From: JAGLHV01 sp023132075 [NCBI: bacterium]
Lineage (GTDB): Bacteria > CBDUZB01 > JAGLHV01
Reading direction: 5' to 3'
Length of the DNA: 10,193 nucleotides
Assembly: GCA_023132075.1 (NCBI GenBank)
Contig: JAGLYT010000032.1
Coordinates: 1 to 10,193, forward strand
The notes under the pieces were generated by a model, which searched no databases, was not told the DNA's origin, and saw nothing but the letters and a program-made list of their open reading frames with translations. This document shows, in pieces, positions 2,077 to 9,720 of the stretch; positions within the stretch are counted from its first letter, which is position 1, and each line of letters starts with the position of its first letter. The translations under genes and the position numbers were made by a program.

Positions 2077-3924
2077 TTAGTATGCAATGTCCCCAACATT
2101 GTCCTTTTCTTTAATTTTCCAATCAAGGTTTAATCCCTTTTTATTATTCTCTTCACTCTCTTTTAAACTTTTTATGATATCTTTTATTTCATTTTTTTTT
2201 GCTTCATTTCCTTCCCAAGATTCTAGCCCTTTTTCAAATGATTGAATAGATTCTTTGTTCTTTACCTGTTTTTTATATGCTACTCCCAAATTATAGTAAG
2301 CTTCAGCAAAATCAGGTTTATATTTTATAGCTAGCTTATACTCCTTTATCGCTTTTTCTAATTTATCCTGAGCATCATATTTGATCCCTAAGTTATTATA
2401 GGTTGTAGCCAAATTATTATGAGCTTTAACAAAATCAGATTTATGTTTTATAGCTAATTTAAATTCTTTTATCGCTTCCACTGGTTTATTCTGCTCACCA
2501 TATGACGCCCCCAAATTATTATGAGCTTTAGCAAAATCAGGTTTATATTTTATTGCTAATTTAAATTCTTTTATCGCTTCTTCTAATTTACCCTGTTTGT
2601 AATATATAACACCTAAATTATTATGGGCTATAACAAAATTGGGTTTATATTTTATTGCTAACTTATATTCCTTTATCGCTTCTTCTGTCTTATTTTGTTT
2701 ATAATCATAAAGAAGTCCTAAATTATAATAAGCACTAGCAAGATCGCGCTTATATTGTATCGCTAATTTAAATTCTTCTATGGCCTTTGTTAGTTTATCG
2801 TTATTATAATAAATACCACCCAAATCATTATGCGCTTCGGCATAATCAGGTTTATGTTTTATTGCTAATTCATATCGCTTTATTGCTTCTTCAATTTTTT
2901 TATGGTTGACAGAAATTAGACCCATCTCATAATAAGATTTAGCAATATCTTCCTGATAAATATTTTTAAATATAAATTCCGCACAATCAAAAAAAGTTTC
3001 TTTACCTTTATAGTTTATATTGAAATATTTTTCATTATCTATACGAACGGTGACATTCCAGTTATTTTCAATATCAATAATATCTCCGTCCACATTATGA
3101 AATTTATATCCAAATATATTTTTTAAATAACCACATTTTTTAAAATAATTCACAACTTCATTTAAAGATAAACCCATTGGTTTAATATACATATCTGGTT
3201 CTGATTTCTTATTATCGATTTCCATTTTTTTAGATAAATTTACAGTAATTATTTTAGTATATATATCTAGTTCTGATTTCTTATTATCGATTTCCATTTT
3301 TTTAGGTAAATTTACAGTAATTATTTTAGTATTTATATCTGGTTCTGATTTCCTATTATCTATTTCGAAACTATTAGCCGAAGGGTTTTTTTCATCTACT
3401 GGTTCCCCTTCCAACATTGCAAGGTTTTTCTTATTGCTTTCAATAATTTTATAAATTTCATCTCTAATATGATTAGTAAACGCTTCATTTGTAAAACCTG
3501 TATTCTTTTTAAAACTCTCGGAAAGAGAAGAAAAGCCAATTAATACACAATCTTTTTGTAACTTGTCTATACAAATTAAAATAAAAACTATAAAAAATAA
3601 AACAATTATTACATCTATTACACTTTTTATATAAATTATTAATAATAAGACTATCCACAAAAGAAATGAAACAAATAATATCTGTTTTATGAAATTTATC
3701 TTAATGAATATTAATCCCAAAATTAGTATAAAAGTAATAATTATTTTTAACACATTTTTATTTTTTATCTCTTTTATTATTTTATCCATTTTAATAATTA
3801 ACTGAAAAATCTGTTTTATTCCTTTAAGCAACTCTATTTTTATCCAACGGAGTAAAACAAATAATTTCTCTGCTATCCTCTTTTTCATTTTATTAATATA
3901 CCTATATATTACTTTCATTTTCAT
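2077..3924 (-). CDS. Membrane-anchored tetratricopeptide repeat (TPR) protein
   Basis: This is a 615-residue protein in three parts. Residues 1-57 are basic and amphipathic. Residues 58-120 are strongly hydrophobic and can form two to four membrane helices. After a linker with tandem 24-residue repeats (about 188-246) and a small mixed domain (about 250-320), residues 329-575 form about seven TPR units of 34 residues. Their consensus is 'A..N.LG..Y...(K/N)...AI.E.KLAI..KPDFA.A'. One unit near 500-541 is longer by about 8 residues. TPRs bind other proteins, so this is probably a scaffold or adaptor at the membrane; no catalytic motif is visible. The first ATG lacks a clear Shine-Dalgarno site; the ATGs at residues 3 and 13 are alternatives. 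It follows the Mrr gene by 68 bp and may belong to the same transcript, but TPR proteins are common and the functional link is unproven. The last codons (VGDIAY) overlap an inverted copy of the 1921-1931 repeat, so the C-terminus may have been altered by a repeat element. Confidence 0.85.
   Translation of the reverse strand: MKMKVIYRYINKMKKRIAEKLFVLLRWIKIELLKGIKQIFQLIIKMDKIIKEIKNKNVLKIIITFILILGLIFIKINFIKQILFVSFLLWIVLLLIIYIKSVIDVIIVLFFIVFILICIDKLQKDCVLIGFSSLSESFKKNTGFTNEAFTNHIRDEIYKIIESNKKNLAMLEGEPVDEKNPSANSFEIDNRKSEPDINTKIITVNLPKKMEIDNKKSELDIYTKIITVNLSKKMEIDNKKSEPDMYIKPMGLSLNEVVNYFKKCGYLKNIFGYKFHNVDGDIIDIENNWNVTVRIDNEKYFNINYKGKETFFDCAEFIFKNIYQEDIAKSYYEMGLISVNHKKIEEAIKRYELAIKHKPDYAEAHNDLGGIYYNNDKLTKAIEEFKLAIQYKRDLASAYYNLGLLYDYKQNKTEEAIKEYKLAIKYKPNFVIAHNNLGVIYYKQGKLEEAIKEFKLAIKYKPDFAKAHNNLGASYGEQNKPVEAIKEFKLAIKHKSDFVKAHNNLATTYNNLGIKYDAQDKLEKAIKEYKLAIKYKPDFAEAYYNLGVAYKKQVKNKESIQSFEKGLESWEGNEAKKNEIKDIIKSLKESEENNKKGLNLDWKIKEKDNVGDIAY
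3199..3366. repeat. 72-bp tandem repeat within the TPR gene (about 2.3 copies)
   Basis: The sequence starting TTCTGATTTC recurs at 3199, 3271 and 3343, exactly 72 bp apart; the third copy is partial. Copies 1 and 2 differ at only a few positions. On the coding strand each unit encodes 24 residues of the type EIDNKKSE.D..TKIITVNL.KKM, so the frame is kept at any copy number. It lies between the membrane segment and the TPR domain and acts as a linker whose length could vary between strains. Confidence 0.9.
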
Positions 3925-3992: not shown

Positions 3993-4985
3993 TTATGCTG
4001 GCCAATAAAGTTTTTTTAACGGAATTAAAGTCATTATATCGTTATCGACTTTATCATAATTTTCTATTAGCAATTCTGTTAATGAATCTATATCTATTAA
4101 AGTAATAGGGATATTTGAACGTTCTGCTTCATATCTTGCATCCTTACTGAAACCGCCAGTTGATACATATAATCCTCTATCACTAGAAGTTAGTCCGCCA
4201 ATAAAACTTCTTAATTGATTAGAACCTATAGTTCCTGCTCTATGTTTTACTTCAACTTTAATTCTTGGCTGTTCTAAACCCAATCCATCCGGAGAAGCAA
4301 TAACATCAACCCCTCTATCTGCCCCTCTTGCAGAAACTCTCGTCTTATATCCCATTGCTCTTAATATTCCAGCAACTAATTCTTGCATCTCTTCCCAATC
4401 AAGCGTTAGTATTTTATCTTTAATAAATTCATATCCCTGTTCAATTACATCATCTCTTAACACTGCAATTTCCGGCTCTTCTGGTGATATTTCATCTTTT
4501 TTAATTTTATTCCCTTTTAACAATTCTAAAAATTCTTTTGTAGCATTGTTATTTAGTAAAAACAAGGTCATAATTGCACCTATTGTATTTTTTGTAGAAA
4601 CAGACAAGATGTCTCTTTCGACTTCTCCCTTCCATGATACTTCTCGAATATGATTATAATCTTTTATCTGATTGGACTTATATTTATAATCAGATTTTAT
4701 CTCTCCAATATGGTATATTCTTTTTTCAGGATTGTATGTAATCACAGAGTCCCCAACTTTTATTTCACTTCTAAATCTATAGATTTGTCCAATCGACATT
4801 TGTTGTTTTCCTTGACTTTTCCCTGGATAAACTGAACGATATAGCTCTTTAATTTTTTCTTTTCCATCTATTTCTGCCAAATCCCCTAATTCATTCCATC
4901 CTATTGCCACACATTTTTTTTCAATAAATTCATCAACTAAATATGCAGCTCTTCCTGCTCTCACCATCCACATTTTAATGCTCAT
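3993..4985 (-). CDS. Mrr-type restriction endonuclease with N-terminal PUA/EVE-like domain
   Basis: This 330-residue protein has two domains. Residues about 4-155 (WMVRAG...VAIGWNELGDL...GQIYRF..EIKVGD.VITY......Y.IGEI...Y) fit the PUA/EVE-like domain often joined to type IV nucleases, where it is thought to read modified bases. Residues about 194-310 are an Mrr-type PD-(D/E)XK nuclease: Glu202 in MQELVAGIL, Asp227 in RGVDVIA, the E-V-K triad Glu245-Lys247 in KVEVKHR, and Gln257 in SNQLRSF. The full catalytic set is present, so it is probably active. The expected role is cutting foreign DNA that carries base modifications. There is no helix-turn-helix N-terminus as in E. coli Mrr. The start is well set: ATG with AAAGGAG 6 nt upstream, and that site overlaps the stop of the deaminase gene, leaving an 11-bp gap and suggesting coupled translation. 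No partner methylase is visible, which suits a modification-dependent enzyme. Confidence 0.88.
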   Translation of the reverse strand: MSIKMWMVRAGRAAYLVDEFIEKKCVAIGWNELGDLAEIDGKEKIKELYRSVYPGKSQGKQQMSIGQIYRFRSEIKVGDSVITYNPEKRIYHIGEIKSDYKYKSNQIKDYNHIREVSWKGEVERDILSVSTKNTIGAIMTLFLLNNNATKEFLELLKGNKIKKDEISPEEPEIAVLRDDVIEQGYEFIKDKILTLDWEEMQELVAGILRAMGYKTRVSARGADRGVDVIASPDGLGLEQPRIKVEVKHRAGTIGSNQLRSFIGGLTSSDRGLYVSTGGFSKDARYEAERSNIPITLIDIDSLTELLIENYDKVDNDIMTLIPLKKLYWPA

Positions 4986-4996
4986 TGTGTTCTCCT

Positions 4997-7228
4997 TTAA
5001 TACTCATATCTTTCTAGCAAGTTATTGAGTTCTAATTCTTGCCATTCTTTTTGATCATAAACCGGTTTAAACAATTTAAAATATCCCAATGGTTTAACCC
5101 CCTCAAAATGTCTCAATGCAACTTTCTCTTGTCCATCTTGTAAAAACATCTCGGACAGCTCTGCAGGATATGGATCATCATAGATTATTTCTGTCATCCC
5201 AACTTGTAGAATTTTCCGAGCACATAAAGGACAAGGATAAGTAGTAATATAAATTTTTGCTCCTTTTAAACCCATCCCACCTCTACGTGCACTCTGTAAA
5301 ATAGCATTTTCTTCTGCGTGAAGAGCCCGACAATTCTCTATTTTTTTCTGGTATATTTCATTAATCTCTTTGAATGGAAACTTATTTCCCATCACCTTTT
5401 TACATTTTTTCTCAAATTTTTTTATAGAAAACAATTCATTAAAACACACACAATGTTCATCAGGAATCTTTTTGTCTTCATTAAATCCATAAATTTTTCT
5501 TATCCATTCTTTGATTCCTTCTTTAATCTCCTTTCTATTACTTTCCTCTGTCTCCTTCTTTAAAAGACACTCTACATATCTTTGGAATATAGTTTCTTCT
5601 AAATCCTTTATTTCAATTAATCCACAACTCAAATGTCCTTCTCCCACATCATTCCACCCAGCACCGATTATATAGCCCTCTTTGTCTACAATTACAGCTC
5701 CCACCTGTCTGCTTATACAATTTGATTTCATTGCTAAAGCATAAGCCTGATTCATCAAGTGTTCATCATCGTTAGGTTTTGTACAACCTTTATCTATTAT
5801 AAGAGCAAAATATTTTAGAATTTTCCTTTTAAAATCTTCATCTCTATATTCCCTATTTTTTTTTCTTTCTTCTTCGGAAAATTTTTTTTCTAATTCTTCT
5901 TCTGCTACATAATTATTTATTGAGATATCGGCTAACCTGTTACATAAAGTTACGTTTTGTTTATACAGCAAATCTACTGCTTTTACATCTTTACCACTAT
6001 CTCTCTCATCCATTTTTTTAAAAATTTTTTCCTCGATTGTTTCATTTTTTTCTTTCAACCTGTTTAATCTAATTTCTTCAGGAGCAAAAATTGATACCAA
6101 ATAGAAATTTATAAATTGTTTTCTAAGGTATAGTATCTCATGGGGATTTCTTAAACTATTTATCAAAAACACCTTGTGGTTTCCTTTTTTACTAAGTAAA
6201 CTAATTATATTTTTAACATCTCTAACTAATTCATATCTAGTATCTTCCTTTTCTTTTACCAATTTCTTATTAATTACATTTTTATTTTCGTAAGTCTTTT
6301 GATAATCATAAGGATTACCACACTTTCTAATATTATCACCAAAATCTTGCATTAATTCTATACATTTACCCGGGCCTAATGACTTATACAAATCTCCTTT
6401 AATTTCTCTTATTTTTTTGACAATAAATTTTGTTATTTTTTTTATACTCTCTATCTCTTCCTTTTGTGGCTGACAAATTTTTCCATACCACTCCTTAAGA
6501 GTTTTATATTTACAATCTTGTTGCTTAATTTCATTATTTATACAGTTTATAATAGTTTCTACTTTTGTAATAAAAAAATTTTCTACCTTTTTTTTATCAT
6601 TTTTATCGTTTTTATGAATTTCAACCAATAATTTCTTTAAATTATCATCGGTATAGTTGAATAAAACTTTAAAAATAATAATATCAGATACTGTTATTGT
6701 CCTAAAGTGATGTTGTTTATTATCTTTATTAACAAACATCGCTAATTTACTGGTCTCATCATCTAAAGCATTTAAAGCTTCTCTTTGCTCCAATAATACC
6801 TTTACTTCAGAAAAAATACATTGTTTAAAATATTCTATAGTTTCTTTATTTAAATTTAATTTAGTGCATTTATTATTTTTCATAAAATGGCTTATTGCTT
6901 CTTTTTTTTCAAAACAATGAAATATTCTATTTTTTATAATTTTAAGTTTATTTTTTCTTATCTCTGCATCGGAAATTTGCAAATAATTCTCTAACTCTTC
7001 TATTAATTTATAAAAATCATATATTTCTTTTTCTATGTTTGCAAAATCTATTTTCCCTTTTTTTTCTCCTTCATTCCCATTAAAATAACCATTTTCCTCA
7101 AGATAGTCTATCAAGTTTATTTTTGCCTTTTTTTCTTTGGGAAAATTATTAAAAAATTCTGCAAAAGTAGTGCACCCACTACCAAGAGAACCTGTAAGAC
7201 CTATAACAATAATGTCAGATTTATCCAT
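4997..7228 (-). CDS. Anti-phage dCTP/dCMP deaminase (AvcD / DCTPdeaminase type) with P-loop NTPase domain and long insertion
   Basis: The protein is 743 residues. The N-terminus has a P-loop, GLTGSLGSGCTT (10-21), in which Cys19 stands where kinases have the invariant lysine. The second half of that NTPase fold appears at about 335-395 (VFLINSLRNPHEI...IFAPEEIRLNRL). Between them lies a Lys/Glu-rich, mostly helical insertion of about 270 residues. The C-terminal deaminase domain starts near 490 (RQVGAVIVDKEGYIIGAGWND). It has the zinc and proton-shuttle motif H637-A-E639-E and P665-C666-P-L-C669. A further insert of about 100 residues (530-636) carries C535, C554, H592, C593 and C595. Known relatives deplete dCTP/dCMP during phage infection and are shorter, as I recall about 500-600 residues. 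I use the ATG at 7228, preceded by GGAGG 5 nt away. An in-frame TTG at 7240 would put this ribosome site inside the gene. All visible catalytic residues are intact. Confidence 0.88.
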   Translation of the reverse strand: MDKSDIIVIGLTGSLGSGCTTFAEFFNNFPKEKKAKINLIDYLEENGYFNGNEGEKKGKIDFANIEKEIYDFYKLIEELENYLQISDAEIRKNKLKIIKNRIFHCFEKKEAISHFMKNNKCTKLNLNKETIEYFKQCIFSEVKVLLEQREALNALDDETSKLAMFVNKDNKQHHFRTITVSDIIIFKVLFNYTDDNLKKLLVEIHKNDKNDKKKVENFFITKVETIINCINNEIKQQDCKYKTLKEWYGKICQPQKEEIESIKKITKFIVKKIREIKGDLYKSLGPGKCIELMQDFGDNIRKCGNPYDYQKTYENKNVINKKLVKEKEDTRYELVRDVKNIISLLSKKGNHKVFLINSLRNPHEILYLRKQFINFYLVSIFAPEEIRLNRLKEKNETIEEKIFKKMDERDSGKDVKAVDLLYKQNVTLCNRLADISINNYVAEEELEKKFSEEERKKNREYRDEDFKRKILKYFALIIDKGCTKPNDDEHLMNQAYALAMKSNCISRQVGAVIVDKEGYIIGAGWNDVGEGHLSCGLIEIKDLEETIFQRYVECLLKKETEESNRKEIKEGIKEWIRKIYGFNEDKKIPDEHCVCFNELFSIKKFEKKCKKVMGNKFPFKEINEIYQKKIENCRALHAEENAILQSARRGGMGLKGAKIYITTYPCPLCARKILQVGMTEIIYDDPYPAELSEMFLQDGQEKVALRHFEGVKPLGYFKLFKPVYDQKEWQELELNNLLERYEY

Positions 7229-7233
7229 ATTAT

Positions 7234-7238
7234 CCTCC
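7234..7238 (-). promoter_or_regulatory. Shine-Dalgarno site GGAGG that sets the deaminase start
   Basis: GGAGG on the minus strand lies 5 nt before the ATG at 7226-7228. It overlaps codons 2-3 of the longer TTG reading, which argues against that reading. Confidence 0.8.
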
Positions 7239-7262
7239 AAATACTAATTCTTGATCTTTAAT

Positions 7263-7288
7263 AAAAGCAGGGTCAATTCCCTGTTTTT
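7263..7288. terminator. Terminator- or attenuator-like hairpin between the HEPN-like and deaminase genes
   Basis: The core stem CAGGG (7268-7272) pairs with CCCTG (7279-7283) around a 6-nt loop, and A/T pairs plus one G-U pair extend it to 10 bp (7263-7272 with 7279-7288). On the minus strand it starts 4 nt after the HEPN-like stop codon and the core is followed by CTTTTATT; on the plus strand it is followed by TTTTTT. The shape fits a bidirectional intrinsic terminator. As the two genes are only 64 bp apart, it may act as a partial terminator that lowers deaminase expression. I see no separate promoter after it. Confidence 0.65.
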
Positions 7289-7292
7289 TATT

Positions 7293-8795
7293 TTACTCTA
7301 ATATTTTTCCTTTAAAAATACCGGCCGGATCCTTTAACATTGCTAACCAAATATAAATTGCAAGAAATGAAATTTTATTTGAAATATTCCCATCATGAAT
7401 CTTTAAAATATTTGTATTATTTATAGCATACCCATGATAAGTATTTCTAACTTCTCTTATAAATGACGGGATAAAATCTTCCATATCAAGCTTAATATCT
7501 TTTCCTTTTCTATCTTTAAATGAAACCGTACTGCCCTTCTTTCTTTGTGATATAAATATCCCTTTCTCAATCGATTTATTTACTTCTTTTATAGTCTTTT
7601 TACATTTGTTTCTAAAGTAATTGCCAAAAGGCTGGTTATATTTGCTTAAAATCGAACTAATTTCATTTATTGCTTTACTTTTGAATAATATCTTAAAAAT
7701 ATCTGAAGAATTAAAAGTAGTTTTTTTTGAGTGAAATCGAATTAACTCAGATAATTTGTCAATTACTCCAAATAAATTGGTTTTCCTTATGTACTGGTTT
7801 AAATGTTCTGTTTCAATAAGTAGGACTTCATTTGCTATTCTCTCTAGAGACAAATAGTTTAAAAACCATTTTTCTGTATCTATTATATCTGAGTTCTGGT
7901 TTCTAAAATTGATAGGATTTGTAAAGTATTCAAATAAGTTATTCATACCTTCAACATATTCATATAACAGACTCTCTGTATCGTTGATATTAAAATTTAC
8001 TTTTTCTACGGGATCATTTAATATTTTTTCTCCTGGTACATGTTCAGAAAAATAAGTTGCATCCTTTCTAAGTAACTCCTGTAATCTACTAGGAAAAATA
8101 GACCTACAATCAACTAATTTATCGAAAAGAAAGATAAACGCTCCCCCAAGTCGTTCCTTACTTATCCCAATTAGATAAGGAGAAAAAATTCCCATTATCG
8201 GATTCAATATTCCTGTATATCCCAACATATTTGAAGACTCACTCAAATTCTTGAGTGTCTGTATCCCTCTAAATCTGTGTCCTACATTCTGATAAATCTC
8301 TGGTATTTGATCTAATGCGAATAATGTTCTACTCGCAGCTAATCTTTGATTTAATATGGGTTCTACTTTCATAAAATAAATATTCCCTTTAGGGAATATT
8401 TTAGAATAAGCAGGGATAACATAATTTTTTAAAATTAAGCCTATTTGTTCATTTGATGAAAGAAATAGATATTTTCCAATATGATAAAGTTTATTTTTGA
8501 TATTTTCAGCTTTTTTTATTTTATTTCCGATACTTTTTAACTGACTTTCAGTAAGGCATGACTTATATTCAAAAGGATAATTAATTAGCCAATGCTTAAC
8601 TTCTGAAATTTTATCATCCAGGGATTGTTGACCATCGCTTATTTTTAATTCCTCAAAATATTTATTTGGCATGTTTTCTTCAAAAATTATATTTCCGTTT
8701 TCAAACTTACACTTAAAATTACATTTATTTTGAAGAAAAGCAATTAAATTATTTAATTTAGGATCATTACCTTTATTATATACTGCAATATTCAT
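7293..8795 (-). CDS. Unrecognised 500-residue protein with a C-terminal HEPN-like motif
   Basis: I do not recognise the full protein. It appears cytoplasmic: no signal peptide or membrane segment is clear, and it is rich in Lys, Asn and Ile. Residues 1-70 look like a small mixed alpha/beta domain. Residues about 80-400 look mainly helical, with a glycine-containing central stretch (about 170-225, including VGHRFRGIQT and LGYTGILNPIMG). The C-terminus has FIREVRNTYHGY (445-456), giving R447-x6-H454 and R450-N451-x2-H454-G455, followed by a hydrophobic helix (476-487). That matches the R-x4-6-H signature of HEPN ribonucleases and the 'RN..HG' form in Apea-like HEPN families. HEPN assignment is an inference from this motif alone. 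The ATG has GAGGAAAA about 10 nt upstream. It is first in the tight cassette with the deaminase and Mrr genes, so it may be an extra effector, a sensor or the regulator of the deaminase. Confidence 0.75.
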   Translation of the reverse strand: MNIAVYNKGNDPKLNNLIAFLQNKCNFKCKFENGNIIFEENMPNKYFEELKISDGQQSLDDKISEVKHWLINYPFEYKSCLTESQLKSIGNKIKKAENIKNKLYHIGKYLFLSSNEQIGLILKNYVIPAYSKIFPKGNIYFMKVEPILNQRLAASRTLFALDQIPEIYQNVGHRFRGIQTLKNLSESSNMLGYTGILNPIMGIFSPYLIGISKERLGGAFIFLFDKLVDCRSIFPSRLQELLRKDATYFSEHVPGEKILNDPVEKVNFNINDTESLLYEYVEGMNNLFEYFTNPINFRNQNSDIIDTEKWFLNYLSLERIANEVLLIETEHLNQYIRKTNLFGVIDKLSELIRFHSKKTTFNSSDIFKILFKSKAINEISSILSKYNQPFGNYFRNKCKKTIKEVNKSIEKGIFISQRKKGSTVSFKDRKGKDIKLDMEDFIPSFIREVRNTYHGYAINNTNILKIHDGNISNKISFLAIYIWLAMLKDPAGIFKGKILE

Positions 8796-8940: not shown

Positions 8941-9495
8941 CTATTCCGATAAAAAACGTTTATCATTGATACTTGCTGGAGTTTTCAAATAAGATTCAGG
9001 AATAATATCCTTAATGTAATTTAACAATTCAGAAAGATACTGAGACGACTCTTTACAGCGTACCACCAAATTTTTATTTAACATGAAACTGTTAGGCTCT
9101 TGTTTTTTCTCATCCCAGATTGAACTCATCAAGCACACACTATTGTAATAGTGTTGTGCAGATGACATCAAAATGTTTACAAGCCATTTTGGTGCAAATT
9201 CATATATGCCTTTCTCAACTAATCCCATTGGTGATTTCTTCCCTTGTTTTGAAATTTTATGAATTAATTTTATGTCTTTTGTCTTTATAGCTTCTTTAAG
9301 TAATTGCGCGAGTTCGTCGCATTTTGTTTTCCATCTTTTTATCACAACTATTACACTAATTATGTGATTTGCATCTGGAAGGACTTCTAATTGGCGCACT
9401 TTTCTATCCATGTTTAATGATTCACGAGTGAGATATGTCTGGTAAGCAACAACGAGTAAAGCTACTACATTCAATAACAGAACAAATATTGTCAT
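8941..9495 (-). CDS. Small membrane-anchored protein of unknown function
   Basis: From the ATG at 9495 the protein has 184 residues. One membrane helix lies at the N-terminus (about 2-19, TIFVLLLNVVALLVVAYQ), followed by a basic, helical soluble part (LTRESLNMDRKVRQLEV...) that probably faces the cytoplasm. I recognise no family or catalytic motif. The start rests on AAAGGTGG four nt upstream (9500-9507). However, the frame stays open upstream to a stop at 9655, and a TTG at 9588 would add 31 residues with a second membrane-like helix (AALVGILGVFAIYALQW). That segment looks genuinely coding, but the TTG has no ribosome site, so either a two-helix protein with an unusual start or a decayed N-terminus is possible. 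It sits 145 bp upstream of the HEPN-like gene, and its link to the cassette is uncertain. Confidence 0.65.
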   Translation of the reverse strand: MTIFVLLLNVVALLVVAYQTYLTRESLNMDRKVRQLEVLPDANHIISVIVVIKRWKTKCDELAQLLKEAIKTKDIKLIHKISKQGKKSPMGLVEKGIYEFAPKWLVNILMSSAQHYYNSVCLMSSIWDEKKQEPNSFMLNKNLVVRCKESSQYLSELLNYIKDIIPESYLKTPASINDKRFLSE

Positions 9496-9720
9496 GTTTC
9501 CACCTTTATGGCTAATAATTGAATTTTGGATCCATTGAAGGGCATAAATGGCAAATACACCTAAAATCCCAACCAAAGCAGCATACAAAATTTGGGGGAC
9601 GGTCTTAAGATAATAAGTTAATACTTTTTTATTTAAGTATTCTTTCCCTTTTTTTTACCTCAATTCTTTATGTGCCTGCCATTCCTTCTCTTTTTTTTCA
9701 TTTTTTTTGCCTTTTATCAG

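Follow-up and report, generated by a model that had tools for sequence, protein, structure and literature searches.

The window analysed here is a whole contig of 10,193 bases (G000:C246) from the bacterium JAGLHV01 sp023132075. It carries three adjacent minus-strand genes which encode, in order of transcription, a 500-amino-acid (aa) protein, a deaminase and an EVE-like/Mrr nuclease. We think it likely that this is a small modular phage-defence locus rather than a dedicated three-protein system, and that the deaminase and the nuclease are independent layers. A preliminary description of the window had joined the three genes into one cassette of a HEPN-like protein, a dCTP/dCMP deaminase and an Mrr nuclease with a likely modified-base reader. 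The three open reading frames (ORFs) were confirmed on the minus strand where that description had placed them, with the same gaps of 64 bp (7229-7292) and 11 bp (4986-4996). The combination of a deaminase with an EVE-type nuclease was found again in two other genomes; the three-gene cassette was not conserved in the loci seen.

The deaminase and the EVE-like/Mrr nuclease

The deaminase gene (4997-7228, minus strand) encodes 743 aa from an ATG at 7228 and was identified from its ORF, profiles, motifs and a structural model. A Walker A P-loop (GLTGSLGSG, residue 10) is followed in the single protein by a zinc-dependent deaminase domain, which is the architecture of the anti-phage family. The HAEE motif (residue 637) and the PCxxC motif (PCPLC, residue 665) are intact, as had been noticed before. 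The protein matched PADLOC dCTPase at 2e-90 and NF041025, the NCBIfam anti-phage dCTP deaminase, at 2.4e-79 with alignment over 2-435 of 437 positions. Despite this alignment the NF041025 score was 267.3 bits against a cut-off of 400, and by score we therefore class the protein as a divergent relative outside the curated set, although it is a family member by architecture. By its sequence it is an anti-phage dCTP deaminase (AvcD/DcdA-like) of a long-insert branch. Depletion of dCTP/dCMP on infection has been shown for AvcD (PMC10511110), and the window deaminase would be expected to act likewise.

The deaminase aligned with twelve viral-contig members of the family at 26-32% identity, and with four from plasmids at 28-30%. 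Alignment with the twelve showed an additional segment in the window protein, residues 76-170 (98 columns); at every column of it two or more of the four long proteins have a residue, and no more than 3 of the 12 others do. The long-insert proteins are those of the window, of G002 (62% identical to that of the window), of a Spirochaetes metagenome-assembled genome (MAG; 52%) and of a Chlorobiota MAG (40%). The scan of the genome collection for such relatives used two peptide patterns and returned 3 loci; further ones may exist. An AlphaFold model of the deaminase, built with 16 sequences, had a mean pLDDT of 74 and matched solved dCMP deaminases, the best of which was 2hvw (E 2.3e-6, TM 0.72 by target length).

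The third gene (3993-4985, minus strand) encodes a 330-aa protein with an EVE-like N-terminal part and an Mrr PD-(D/E)XK nuclease domain at residues 193-306. The nuclease domain matched Mrr_cat (Pfam) at 7.4e-26, and the catalytic residues D227...E245-x-K247 are present, so the earlier view of an intact Mrr nuclease holds. The protein also matched the PADLOC candidate PDC-S02 nearly full length (1-329 of 334, 1.5e-99). The proposed modified-base reader is less certain, its Pfam EVE match being weak (E 0.041, with 14.3 bits where the cut-off is 23). The N-terminus was 33% identical over 76 residues to that of the G002 nuclease described below. Judged from its domain type, the protein may cut DNA with modified bases.

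Relatives of the Mrr protein were found in 41 plasmid records, at up to 56% identity, and in all four of these loci that were viewed the EVE-Mrr gene stands among restriction-modification (R-M) genes according to the record annotation. The 56% identical protein is encoded on the Proteus mirabilis resistance plasmid pHFK418-NDM (L200), where its neighbours are a DNA methyltransferase, a helicase and a GIY-YIG protein. No relatives of the Mrr protein were found in viral contigs using single-sequence patterns.

Recurrence of the pair and its restriction-type surroundings

Neighbourhoods of 41 deaminase genes were compared: genome surveys gave 13, the genome collection 3 and viral contigs 25. Two of them are partial, namely L046 (deaminase domain only, a 168-aa frame) and L173 (G336, 369 aa). 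The 16 genomes with a full-length deaminase exclude G336 and include G422, whose 616-aa frame has a profile match ending at 356 of 437. Locus length varies, contig ends truncate many of the loci, and among the 25 viral ones several have nearly the same score and look near-identical by it.

Using the window Mrr protein and the G002 nuclease as queries, EVE-type nucleases were detected in two of the 41 loci, those of G002 (L019) and G229 (L165). In G002 the deaminase, 62% identical to that of the window, is preceded at a distance of 51 bp by a YhcG/NucS-type nuclease gene (PDC-S02, 5e-44). In G229, a genome from the phylum sample of the Chlorobiota genome, a NucS-type PDC-S02 gene (1.4e-151) lies 245 bp upstream of the deaminase and overlaps an HsdS gene by 4 bp. 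Both the order and the nuclease thus vary: Mrr is downstream in the window, YhcG/NucS upstream in G002 and NucS upstream in G229. A deaminase with an EVE-type nuclease is present in 3 of the 16 genomes. In a survey of 296 genomes the full-length proteins numbered 8 for the deaminase, 5 for EVE-Mrr and 5 for EVE-NucS, with 1 pair among them; one EVE-nuclease was within 2 kb of a deaminase, against about 0.0005 expected at random. The deaminase and the EVE-type nuclease make up a recurring, not yet proven pair.

In 4 of the 16 genomes (G048, G215, G229 and G288) an HsdS gene (PF01420) was no more than 5 kb from the deaminase, against 0.15 expected (P ~2e-5). Within 3 kb there were 3 against 0.105 expected, and within 10 kb 4 against 0.275; the expectation is for random placement from gene density, with defence-island clustering not controlled. 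HsdS was not matched anywhere in six of the 16 genomes, that of the window being one of these. Among 19 neighbour proteins searched with Pfam were AlwI with a methylase (G003), TaqI_C at a distance of about 5.2 kb (G004), Eco57I/MmeI (G044), HsdR (G215) and GmrSD (G451). With the window, G002, G048, G229 and G288 counted, a restriction-type gene lies within about 5.3 kb of the deaminase in 10 of the 16 genomes, a broader class that the random-placement control does not cover. Of the remaining six genomes, going by the neighbours tested, four have caspase-like loci (G365, G387, G392 and G422); the others are G271 and G214. The deaminase and EVE-nuclease families each gather around R-M genes, and this explains part of the pairing.

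Other neighbours of the deaminase were also recorded. The caspase-like loci (L169-L172, in G387, G392, G365 and G422) are syntenic, the deaminase following a caspase-like Peptidase_C14 gene by 24-27 bp; the peptidase was Pfam-tested in L169 (G387) only. At 8224-11725 of L167 (G271) the deaminase is flanked by an HD phosphohydrolase, probably dGTPase-like, and a dUTPase/dCTP-deaminase-like gene, and on a Geminocystis plasmid (L018: 2699-4018) an annotated dGTPase adjoins it. The G214 deaminase has a DUF5131 gene and an unmatched gene as neighbours. L168 (G451) has, at 4246-7932, a full-length deaminase gene with two co-directional genes after it, for a GmrSD_N (DUF262) protein and a genuine RiboL-PSP HEPN protein, an arrangement whose logic is similar to that of the preliminary description, with unrelated parts. 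Deaminase relatives occur in restriction loci and prophages; in the viral loci viewed (15 of 25) the deaminase is mostly alone, about half being beside an integrase-like gene by eye. The EVE-NucS genes of G252 and G065 come directly after HsdS-like frames, and at 1501-3337 of L192 (G065) the EVE-NucS gene is followed by a second protein resembling an EVE-type N-terminus in an apparent type I R-M locus (both by eye). On a Eubacterium eligens plasmid (L016: 3606-3977) a gene for an ASCH domain, which belongs to the PUA-like superfamily, lies 363 bp upstream of a deaminase of this family.

The first gene and the layout of the locus

The first gene (7293-8795, minus strand) encodes the 500-aa protein, which has a C-terminal R-N-x2-H-G motif. 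It had been called HEPN-like, a label that we regard as unsupported rather than excluded. HEPN RNases carry the motif R-x4-6-H; the sole R-x4-6-H of this protein starts at R447 and is not conserved. The invariant motif of five aligned family members is R-x3-H-G (R450, H454 and G455), followed by H-x-G. In this alignment Nocardia is represented by the short gene as annotated (the profile also matches a neighbouring frame), and the Paenarthrobacter row starts upstream of the annotated start. No match to the first protein was found in Pfam, NCBIfam or PADLOC and no PDB chain at E 10; none of the five family members matched a Pfam HEPN model even at E 10. A comparison with one HEPN protein by hhalign gave a probability of 0.2%, and the best PHROGs match was a family of unknown function at E 0.03. 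The AlphaFold single-sequence model is mostly helical and, with a pLDDT of 36, too poor for a fold test.

Relatives of the first gene were found on actinobacterial plasmids. A Clavibacter protein was 19% identical over 310 columns (E 3e-6 in the collection search), and through it relatives from Paenarthrobacter, Rhodococcus, Streptomyces and Nocardia were reached, giving 8 records. None was found in viral contigs, searched by short peptide patterns, or in phage records. The family profile matched in none of the 41 deaminase neighbourhoods and in none of 4 loci viewed among 61 plasmid deaminase records, the EVE-type nuclease being likewise absent from these four. Conversely, a deaminase or EVE-nuclease was present in 0 of 4 plasmid neighbourhoods of first-gene relatives (of 8 records). 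The family was also absent from two samples of 296 genomes each, one around the Chlorobiota genome and one around the Spirochaetes genome, a weak negative given that no genome there is positive. The preliminary description had made its proposal depend on HEPN-like homologues lying near such deaminases more often than random defence genes do, and on this point the counts go against the HEPN part. The first gene is probably an independent neighbour, a stray member of a family whose other representatives were found on plasmids.

In the 64-bp gap there is a terminator-like hairpin (7268-7283, minus strand; CAGGG, six nucleotides, CCCTG, then CTTTTATT), which is weak by folding (z -1.38) and also scores as a terminator on the plus strand (7263-7288). 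Four terminator-like sites were found in 5.2 kb, two of them being this hairpin read on either strand, against 1.5 expected. Promoter-like sites were uninformative (26 against 29 expected). The deaminase has a ribosome binding site, GGAGG, at 7234-7238 (minus strand). An alternative upstream TTG start would give a protein of 747 aa (4997-7240), and the ATG at 7228 is the better start. In the second gap the ribosome binding site of the Mrr gene, AAAGGAG (4992-4998, minus strand), overlaps the TAA stop of the deaminase (4997-4999), as had been reported. Because of the 11-bp gap and this overlap, the deaminase and the Mrr protein are probably translated from one message.

Of the outer genes, a 215-aa probable membrane protein (by eye) is encoded at 8941-9588, 145 bp upstream of the first gene, and neither Pfam nor NCBIfam nor PADLOC matched it to a family. 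A membrane-anchored TPR gene (membrane part by eye) is located at 2077-3924, 68 bp after the Mrr gene; its G002 counterpart (L009:7079-7633) lies 6 bp after the deaminase. A second TPR gene is present on the same G002 contig, so TPR genes next to both loci may be due to chance, and TPR as a fixed partner was dropped. The purL end in the window is 95% identical to the purL of G002, which belongs to the same genus, and given this identity a binning artefact is unlikely. An empty-site comparison at purL was precluded, as the G002 contig stops 180 bases past the purL match. G000 is a draft of 1.87 Mb in 389 contigs, 86.7% complete, and its phylum was represented by three genomes in the set analysed.

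Interpretation and comparison with known systems

We favour a modular locus of two layers for the window. The deaminase would remain inactive until phage takeover and then convert dCTP/dCMP to dUTP/dUMP, which, from what is established for the family, would starve phage DNA synthesis. The EVE-like/Mrr protein would cut incoming DNA with modified bases, and each would protect independently, as one of two layers brought together in a defence locus of restriction type. We regard this mechanism of layered defence as plausible.

A number of observations weigh against this reading. Besides its shortfall in NF041025 score, the deaminase lacks a visible RNA partner: Rfam gave no match to an AvcI-type RNA, a family whose coverage by Rfam is uncertain, and only 64 bp lie upstream of the gene. 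It is also the single deaminase match in G000, which would fit a housekeeping role. The G002 nuclease had no Pfam EVE match at E 0.1, and its description as EVE-type rests on PDC-S02 models and the 33% match over 76 residues. Two of the three pairs come from one genus, so that there are perhaps only two independent pairings, and in the survey 1 of 8 deaminases and 1 of 10 EVE-nucleases were paired. Island clustering alone could yield the HsdS enrichment, and the excess would shrink under a control for island density. G000 itself had 0 HsdS matches at 86.7% completeness, and the HsdS genes of G002 are all away from its deaminase.

A true three-gene system, in which the first protein is an RNase cooperating with the deaminase and the nuclease, is in our judgement very improbable. 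The three genes are on one strand with short gaps, the R-N-x2-H-G motif and a mostly helical prediction of very low confidence could suit an RNase, and G451 has a deaminase beside a GmrSD-type gene and a genuine HEPN protein. However, the first-gene family is missing from all 41 deaminase loci and the deaminase from the vicinity of all four relatives viewed, a terminator-like hairpin separates the first gene from the deaminase, and the canonical HEPN motif is not conserved in a protein that no HEPN profile matches. We give just as little credence to a mainly housekeeping dCMP deaminase that supplies dTMP and has its neighbours by coincidence. Its zinc deaminase domain does match ordinary dCMP deaminases, and whereas G001 and G002 carry a separate short dCMP deaminase, G000 has the one match, although another may be missing from the incomplete draft. 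Against such a role are the full P-loop and deaminase architecture of the anti-phage family, the presence of relatives in restriction loci and prophages, and the case of G002, where the long form coexists with a short dCMP deaminase (a 165-aa frame).

Selection of the deaminase and the EVE-nuclease together, with the first gene unrelated, is somewhat more probable than these two but still unlikely. Ordinary dCTP would be removed by the deaminase, and phages escaping through modified cytosine would be cut by the EVE-nuclease, as in a 'cytosine pincer'. In favour are the three loci that hold the pair in differing order and with different nuclease domains, and the one close pair in the survey where almost none was expected. 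Against it, both families gather around R-M genes separately, so adjacency may be indirect; the pairing is missing in 7 of 8 surveyed deaminases; and reading of modified cytosine by the EVE-like part is a prediction. We consider it doubtful, too, that the long-insert deaminase and an EVE-type nuclease form a recurrent two-layer pincer of this kind, in which the nuclease is exchangeable (Mrr or YhcG/NucS) and the insert may sense infection.

No description of the deaminase/EVE-Mrr pair was recognised in the open-licence literature searched. The main text of an EVE-context survey in BMC Biology (PMC7641849) has no word that starts with Mrr, HEPN, NucS or cytidine, and has deaminase once, for heme synthesis. 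A paper on BREX notes DUF499 systems alongside HEPN RNases and EVE-like domains (PMC12839542), and for this reason the company of HEPN and EVE in defence loci counts as already known. A plasmid defence island in which a type IV enzyme is reported to complement another system gives a precedent (PMC8565348). A functional pairing would account for the way in which a defence by nucleotide depletion withstands escape by modified cytosine, and would offer a testable combination of two genes. Even otherwise, the results add anti-phage deaminases of a long-insert branch, show that these enzymes occur in excess near type I R-M specificity genes, and bring to light a protein family with the R-x3-H-G motif that had not been described.

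Among known families, the actinobacterial plasmid proteins of Clavibacter, Paenarthrobacter, Rhodococcus and Nocardia share with the first protein the C-terminal R-x3-H-G...H-x-G at 17-19% identity; unlike the window gene, all four viewed are without a nearby deaminase or EVE-nuclease. The deaminase has in common with AvcD of AvcID, DcdA, NF041025 and PADLOC dCTPase the P-loop and zinc deaminase with HAEE and PCxxC. It differs from the AvcID/DcdA family in the extra residues 76-170, in missing the NF041025 cut-off and in that no AvcI-like RNA was seen; the RNA antitoxin AvcI is given as 171 to just under 300 nt, with avcD, in PMC10511110. PDC-S02 comprises EVE-like nucleases of the Mrr and YhcG/NucS types, and the window Mrr protein matches it near full length. 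The window gene differs in standing beside a dCTP deaminase, and an R-M gene is not visible in the 10-kb contig. The window protein has an Mrr/PD-(D/E)XK nuclease where VcaM4I has HNH, and base reading is here predicted (compare PMC7897488). Like the EVE-HNH enzyme VcaM4I, an example of the type IV (modification-dependent) enzymes with PUA-type readers, it joins a reader-like N-terminus to a nuclease.

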